Origin: Sphaerimonospora thailandensis | Lineage (GTDB): Bacteria > Actinomycetota > Actinomycetes > Streptosporangiales > Streptosporangiaceae | Length of the DNA: 64,000 nucleotides | Direction of reading: 5' to 3' | NCBI RefSeq assembly: GCF_016863115.1 | Contig: NZ_BOOG01000007.1 | Location: 124,001 to 188,000, forward strand | Part shown: piece by piece, positions 12,053 to 15,893 of the stretch | How the letters are laid out: each line of letters starts with the position of its first letter | Position numbering within the stretch: the stretch's first letter is position 1 | Notes under the pieces: model-generated | Databases searched by the model: none | Seen by the model: only the letters and a program-made list of their open reading frames with translations | What the model was told of the DNA's origin: nothing | Position numbers and translations under genes: made by a program

Positions 12053-15709
<3,657 letters not shown>

Positions 15710-15713
15710 CGGT

Positions 15714-15802
15714 CGCCTCCCGGTTCTCGGGAGGCGCCCTTGACGAAACGTCGCCCGGCCGAGCGTGGCGGGCGTCAGCCCGTTGCAGCGCCTCTCGACC
15801 GG
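15714..15802 (-). ncRNA. S-adenosylhomocysteine (SAH) riboswitch with ribosome-binding-site expression platform
   Basis: Read on the minus strand toward metH. P1 is CCGGTCGAG (15802-15794) pairing with CTCGGCCGG. The internal segment AGGCGCTGCAAC matches the conserved core of the SAH class (GAGCGCUGC-AAC). A P2 stem CGGGC/GCCCG is followed by GCCACGCTCGG, near the family GCCAGGCUCGG. AGGCGC (15793-15788) can form the defining pseudoknot with GCGCCT (15737-15732). Next comes CGCCTCCCG (15736-15728), complementary to CGGGAGGCG (15722-15714), which holds the Shine-Dalgarno. The pseudoknot and the anti-Shine-Dalgarno hairpin share bases, so SAH binding should free the ribosome site and switch metH on. 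SAH riboswitches are known ahead of metH and ahcY. Confidence 0.8.
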
Positions 15803-15893
15803 GACCTCAACCGTACCGAAAGGTGACCAGAAAAATCTACTTCGTTAATGGGGAATCGAAAGCGCTGGGCACCGGTGCCCTACGCTTCGAGGC

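Follow-up and report, generated by a model that had tools for sequence, protein, structure and literature searches.

The SAH riboswitch (RF01057) is known from Wang et al. 2008, with a structure from Edwards et al. 2010 (PDB 3NPQ), both cited in PMC7057144, which also covers the class, its ligand and the activation of ahcY by SAH. The metH gene is listed as a target of SAH riboswitches in Comamonadaceae (PMC4239095), and PMC3766115 reports such riboswitches in Mycobacteriaceae. The latter belong to the same phylum and the same class as the element presented here; however, Streptosporangiaceae lie outside the coverage of that survey, and an overlap of the 3' pseudoknot strand (PK3) with an anti-Shine-Dalgarno (anti-SD) strand is undescribed in its accessible text. 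Other pseudoknot aptamers acting at the ribosome-binding site are the SAM/SAH (RF01727), SAM-II and SAM-V riboswitches. There, the SD sequence lies inside the ligand-bound pseudoknot and the switch is OFF (PMC10907184), whereas the bound pseudoknot of the element described below would free the SD.

The window, a stretch of 64,000 nucleotides from Sphaerimonospora thailandensis, was compared as a whole with Rfam by cmscan. Two matches exceeded their cut-offs, one tRNA and RF01057. The latter (15802-15725, minus strand) covers the full model length (1-78) and ends 15 bases ahead of the GTG of metH; it scores 39.4 bits against a gathering cut-off of 37, a margin of merely 2.4 bits, with an E-value of 8e-4 for 64 kb against 4,227 families. 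In the same scan RF01727 gave no above-cut-off match in the window and the SAM-II and SAM-V models left the element unmatched, and a whole-genome search returned no second RF01057 match, so the one in the window is the sole one. The fold energy of the leader beats all but one of 200 dinucleotide shuffles (z -3.1). An earlier sequence-only reading had assigned the leader to the SAH class, and the covariance model agrees; the core, P1, P2, the pseudoknot and the SD hairpin were all located in the minus-strand sequence 15830-15700 where that reading had placed them (Table 1). Its naming of the downstream gene was likewise borne out, by two equivalog models (NCBIfam PRK09490 with 1864 bits and TIGR02082 with 1556 bits, both above cut-off). 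The metH reading frame is intact and its SD, GGGAGG, stands six bases from the GTG. The sequence-level features expected of RF01057 are all found: the score, compensation in P1 and P2, a pseudoknot that links the strand joining P1 and P2 to a 3' strand, and a gene of the SAH cycle (ahcY, metH or metF) downstream. Judged by its sequence, the metH leader of this soil actinomycete genuinely belongs to the known SAH riboswitches, from which SAH would be expected as the ligand.

Table 1. Features of the metH leader and of metH, in window positions
Feature	Position	Strand	Basis or remark
Probable -10 promoter element TACGGT	15810..15815	-	TANNNT position across leaders
P1 5' strand CCCGGTCGAG	15794..15803	-	sequence; pairs 2-6 vary with compensation in 89 leaders
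Pseudoknot 5' strand (PK5) AGGCGC	15788..15793	-	pairs with 15732-15737
P2 hairpin CGGGC-UGAC-GCCCG	15769..15782	-	CGGGC 15782-15778, GCCCG 15773-15769; pair 4 G-C with A-U and G-U variants
Conserved core CCACG	15764..15768	-	anchor; belongs to CCACGCTCG core
P1 3' strand CTCGGCCGGG	15754..15763	-	covariation across 89 leaders
Linker hairpin GACG-UUU-CGUC	15742..15752	-	in L001, L010, L176
Pseudoknot 3' strand (PK3) GCGCCT, overlaps anti-SD strand	15732..15737	-	alignment of leaders
Anti-SD strand CGCCTCCCG	15728..15736	-	nine pairs with 15714-15722
SD strand CGGGAGGCG	15714..15722	-	SD GGGAGG at 15716-15721
metH, cobalamin (vitamin B12)-dependent methionine synthase, 1218 aa	12053..15709	-	GTG start 15709-15707

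The window element resembles RF01057 in P1, P2, the LL-type pseudoknot architecture, the core sequence, the metH target and the predicted activation by SAH. It differs in the letters of its key strands: the actinomycete form carries AGGCGC/GCGCCU and CCACG, where the Rfam consensus has GAGCGC/GCGCUC-like strands and CCAGG. In the actinomycete form PK3 runs directly into CCUCC and can therefore also act as a strong anti-SD. The one proteobacterial locus compared, a Burkholderia ahcY leader from a plasmid collection, offers a weak five-pair possibility for the equivalent overlap, as read by eye.

Comparative evidence was drawn from a search of 299 genomes of the same family with RF01057, of which 92 match at E <=0.01 and 48 above the cut-off, the best scores reaching 44.9 bits. 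Of 90 loci retrieved, 89 gave leaders that could be parsed in a single register. Between 84 and 89 of them retain P1 pairs 4-10, and pairs 2-6 show compensation (pair 5: G-C 67, A-T 4, C-G 3; pair 6: C-G 51, T-A 5, A-T 2). The sequence-only reading had given P1 nine base pairs; the helix stands, with ten possible pairs, one of them U-G. Compensatory variation in P2 is seen at pairs 4-5 (pair 4: G-C 70, A-T 10, G-T 9). Both strands of the proposed six-base pseudoknot AGGCGC/GCGCCT are present and nearly invariant (A-U, G-C, G-C, C-G, G-C, C-G): pairs 1-5 are kept in 89 of 89 leaders and pair 6 in 79, the sixth pair being lost in ten leaders (AAGGUCGCCU). Double changes are confined to L070 (GGACGC/GCGUCU) and L089 (AAGCGC/GCGCUU), and since the pseudoknot is almost invariant, its compensation evidence rests on few leaders. 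The linker hairpin is confined to the genus Sphaerimonospora, where the leader of a second genome and that of Sphaerimonospora mesophila are identical in reading (L010 and L176); in the linkers of other leaders it is not conserved.

In the window, the anti-SD strand would sequester the SD by nine perfect pairs (15736-15728 with 15722-15714) around the loop AGAAC, as had been proposed. PK3 and the bases following it can pair with a downstream strand in all 89 leaders (5-12 pairs, median 8; 12 pairs in L048), taking up 3-6 PK3 bases. In all but two of the leaders (87) the downstream strand of this helix is at the SD region; the SD placement in L089 and L090 is doubtful because of long loops. Pairing is kept with alternative letters, namely GCCUCUUCC/GGAGGAGGC in L071-L074 and L080 and GCGCCUUCCC/GGGAAGGUGU in L009, and in L070 PK5 (GGACGC), PK3 (GCGUCU) and the SD strand (GGAGACGC) are all altered consistently. 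Hairpin positions 4-8 are held nearly constant by the fixed SD and are uninformative either way. Position 9 belongs neither to the pseudoknot nor to the core of the SD; among 76-77 distinct leaders it is C-G in 52, G-C in 8 and T-A in 7. A second set of 44 leaders holds about one per genus, with a few genera entering twice for different genes; here the counts are C-G 19, T-A 10 and G-C 6. When partners were permuted among leaders, the own-partner duplex was better (-17.26 against -15.63 kcal/mol, sd 0.16, for 77 leaders; -17.46 against -15.66 kcal/mol, sd 0.24, for the 44), with 0 of 20,000 permutations as good in either set, a test that only partly removes the relatedness among leaders. An SD hairpin of eight or more pairs occurs in 29 of 44 riboswitch leaders, compared with 7 of 94 background SD sites from actinomycete DNA of the window and the retrieved loci. 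The sequence-only reading depended on compensatory substitutions in related leaders, and these were found in P1, P2, the pseudoknot and the SD hairpin. A chance resemblance to the class, born of high GC content and a strong hairpin in the leader, is refuted, despite the GC-rich genome and the long hairpins at a few ordinary SD sites, by the covariance-model match, the covariation, the permutation tests and a near-perfect tie to one type of MetH.

The tie to metH was followed in 121 sampled genomes of the family. Window-type MetH occurs in 40 of them (77-100% identical with an N-terminal query), and the riboswitch lies immediately upstream in 36. Among the remaining 81 genomes RF01057 matches in three, in none of them ahead of a window-type MetH. 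A loss of the switch from two thirds of the family genomes was considered and rejected: these genomes carry a second MetH type, about 35-42% identical, without the window type. The window genome itself has a second, distant MetH (G000:C37:60290-60997, L250; 39% identical over the N-terminal part); no riboswitch was found ahead of this gene, whose start looks leaderless. The four exceptions among the 40 are G108 and three members of a single genus whose leaders carry another motif (G024, G079, G105). In G108 the aptamer core of the metH leader (L246) has decayed, while its pseudoknot strands and its SD hairpin are intact; this switch may be on its way to being lost. At the level of the class, 42 of 395 genomes gave RF01057 matches.

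Of 83 leaders, 78 have a TANNNT element 10-14 nt ahead of the 5' end of P1, where the background rate is 0.07 per position; the full sigma-70 consensus is not matched upstream of the window leader. From this spacing, RNA would begin about at the aptamer, so that transcription is predicted to start near P1 and the leader of ~95 nt would be the switch itself.

Our main reading is that this SAH riboswitch is a translational ON switch of metH, in which SAH, by stabilising the pseudoknot, would expose the SD and so increase MetH; we hold it with a probability of roughly 0.88. When SAH is absent, CGCCUCCCG, including five of the six PK3 bases, would pair with CGGGAGGCG and block initiation. As SAH accumulates, it would bind between P1/P2 and the pseudoknot, and AGGCGC would capture GCGCCU. 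PK5 and the SD strand have AGGCG in common and would compete for one CGCCU. With the pseudoknot formed, the outer five blocking pairs would be lost and the remaining ones would weaken to some -5 kcal/mol, which would let ribosomes load. The extra MetH would remove homocysteine and so pull SAH hydrolysis forward. The overlap of PK3 with the anti-SD is consistent with ON action, and the prediction that high SAH raises MetH follows the ON behaviour published for the class with ahcY (PMC7057144). Overall, the switch is conserved across many actinomycete genera and is probably turned on by SAH, a by-product of methylation.

Modelling qualifies this picture. In the unconstrained window leader the SD is closed (modelled openness 0.001), and blocking both pseudoknot strands raises the openness to 0.34, not 1; a rise is modelled in 83 of 85 leaders. 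Pseudoknot and SD hairpin overlap at C2-U6 of PK3, and therefore a remnant of four pairs, CCCG/CGGG (-4.8 kcal/mol), can continue to pair with the leading G's of the SD, which keeps the ON-state openness from exceeding 0.34. Pseudoknot and sequestration, taken as mutually exclusive in the sequence-only reading, are so for the outer five hairpin pairs, but not for the inner four. A ribosome could, we infer, melt this remnant. Since the blocking hairpin (-18.4 kcal/mol) is much stabler than the pseudoknot stack (about -10 kcal/mol), kinetics, folding order or a strong ligand energy must decide the switching. The pseudoknot strand is transcribed ahead of the SD strand, which would favour a co-transcriptional decision.

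The best surviving alternative, an unlikely one, is that the aptamer works chiefly at the level of transcription and not of ribosome access, with the SD hairpin as the site of intrinsic or Rho-dependent termination. Among 26 ahcY leaders from other actinomycetes, 17 have a U-run after the PK3-overlapping hairpin, which speaks for it, as does the fact that blockage of a ribosome site can leave the RNA exposed to Rho. In the window, however, the hairpin is followed by ACCGGUGAAC, with no U-run and no terminator call, no intrinsic terminator was found after it, and just 2 of 44 metH leaders show a U-run; we infer translational rather than transcriptional action. Still less probable, and very doubtful in our judgement, is an aptamer that now recognises another ligand or no longer binds one, its conserved hairpin only setting a low basal rate of translation. 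The RF01057 score barely above cut-off and the broken core beside an intact pseudoknot and SD hairpin in G108 (L246) could be read in this way, but many actinomycete genera share the core strings AGGCGCUGCRACG and CCACGCUCG, and metH or ahcY lies downstream in at least 70 of at least 80 contigs, which fits SAH.

The distribution of the aptamer was followed further in a genome-wide pattern scan, in which the CCACGCTCG core was found in at least 80 genome contigs, nearly all of actinomycetes, with metH downstream of at least 45 of these loci and ahcY of at least 25. A match in Solimonas (L147) was rejected as a chance pattern match. Many of the ahcY leaders (L103-L179) have a U-run after the PK3-overlapping hairpin, resembling an SAH-controlled terminator. 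Read from these leaders, the same module seems to serve two types of platform, an SD mask for metH and a terminator for ahcY.

Further genes follow such leaders. An adenosine deaminase gene (PF00962) is preceded by an SAH riboswitch with the same pseudoknot and SD hairpin in the Streptosporangiaceae genus g25 (L029/L091, L079/L092) and in Micromonosporaceae (L100 and L119; L110, on a contig piece that stops short, is a probable further case). Since SAH hydrolysis also yields adenosine, a switch ahead of adenosine deaminase makes metabolic sense; a literature search of a limited collection found no paper pairing the two. Genes with a MOSC N-terminal domain (PF03476) follow SAH riboswitch-like leaders in Streptosporangiaceae (L051, L059, L076, L090), in Saccharopolyspora indica (L166) and in Saccharothrix tamanrassetensis (L171). 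Single SAH-like leaders precede a methyltransferase gene (PF13649) in Nocardia carnea (L132), an FMN-binding protein gene (PF04299; L070) and an APH-family gene (PF01636; L058).

A different motif was observed in metH leaders of genus g25 without the SAH switch (L247-L249, L254-L258). It reads CCUGGAG-GAUUUGA-GACAGCUUGGCGACCAGG-CAAAAACGCCUAAAGAGUC and also lies ahead of metF (L256). With 20.8 bits against SAM_alpha/SAM-II it falls below the cut-off of 36; by its sequence it is a candidate SAM-II-like riboswitch in actinomycetes.

In the literature found, the actinomycete platform, in which PK3 forms the anti-SD of metH and contributes to a likely ahcY terminator, appears little described, and the additional targets, among them adenosine deaminase and the MOSC genes, likewise appear so. 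A wider proposal, to which we give even odds, is that actinomycetes share a distinct and widespread form of the SAH riboswitch. In this form the shared strand CGCCUCC would take part in the pseudoknot, in the anti-SD for metH and in an anti-terminator/terminator for ahcY, an aptamer strand would imitate the SD, and the regulon would extend to adenosine deaminase and MOSC-domain proteins.

Actinomycetes are the main producers of methylated antibiotics, and SAH recycling limits methyltransferases. The present analysis provides an explicit, covariation-backed expression platform for actinomycete SAH riboswitches, in which one strand would do two jobs, as part of the aptamer pseudoknot and as a mask of the ribosome site. 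Such leaders, recurring as they do before adenosine deaminase and MOSC genes, would widen the SAH regulon and may offer a lead on the role of the MOSC proteins.
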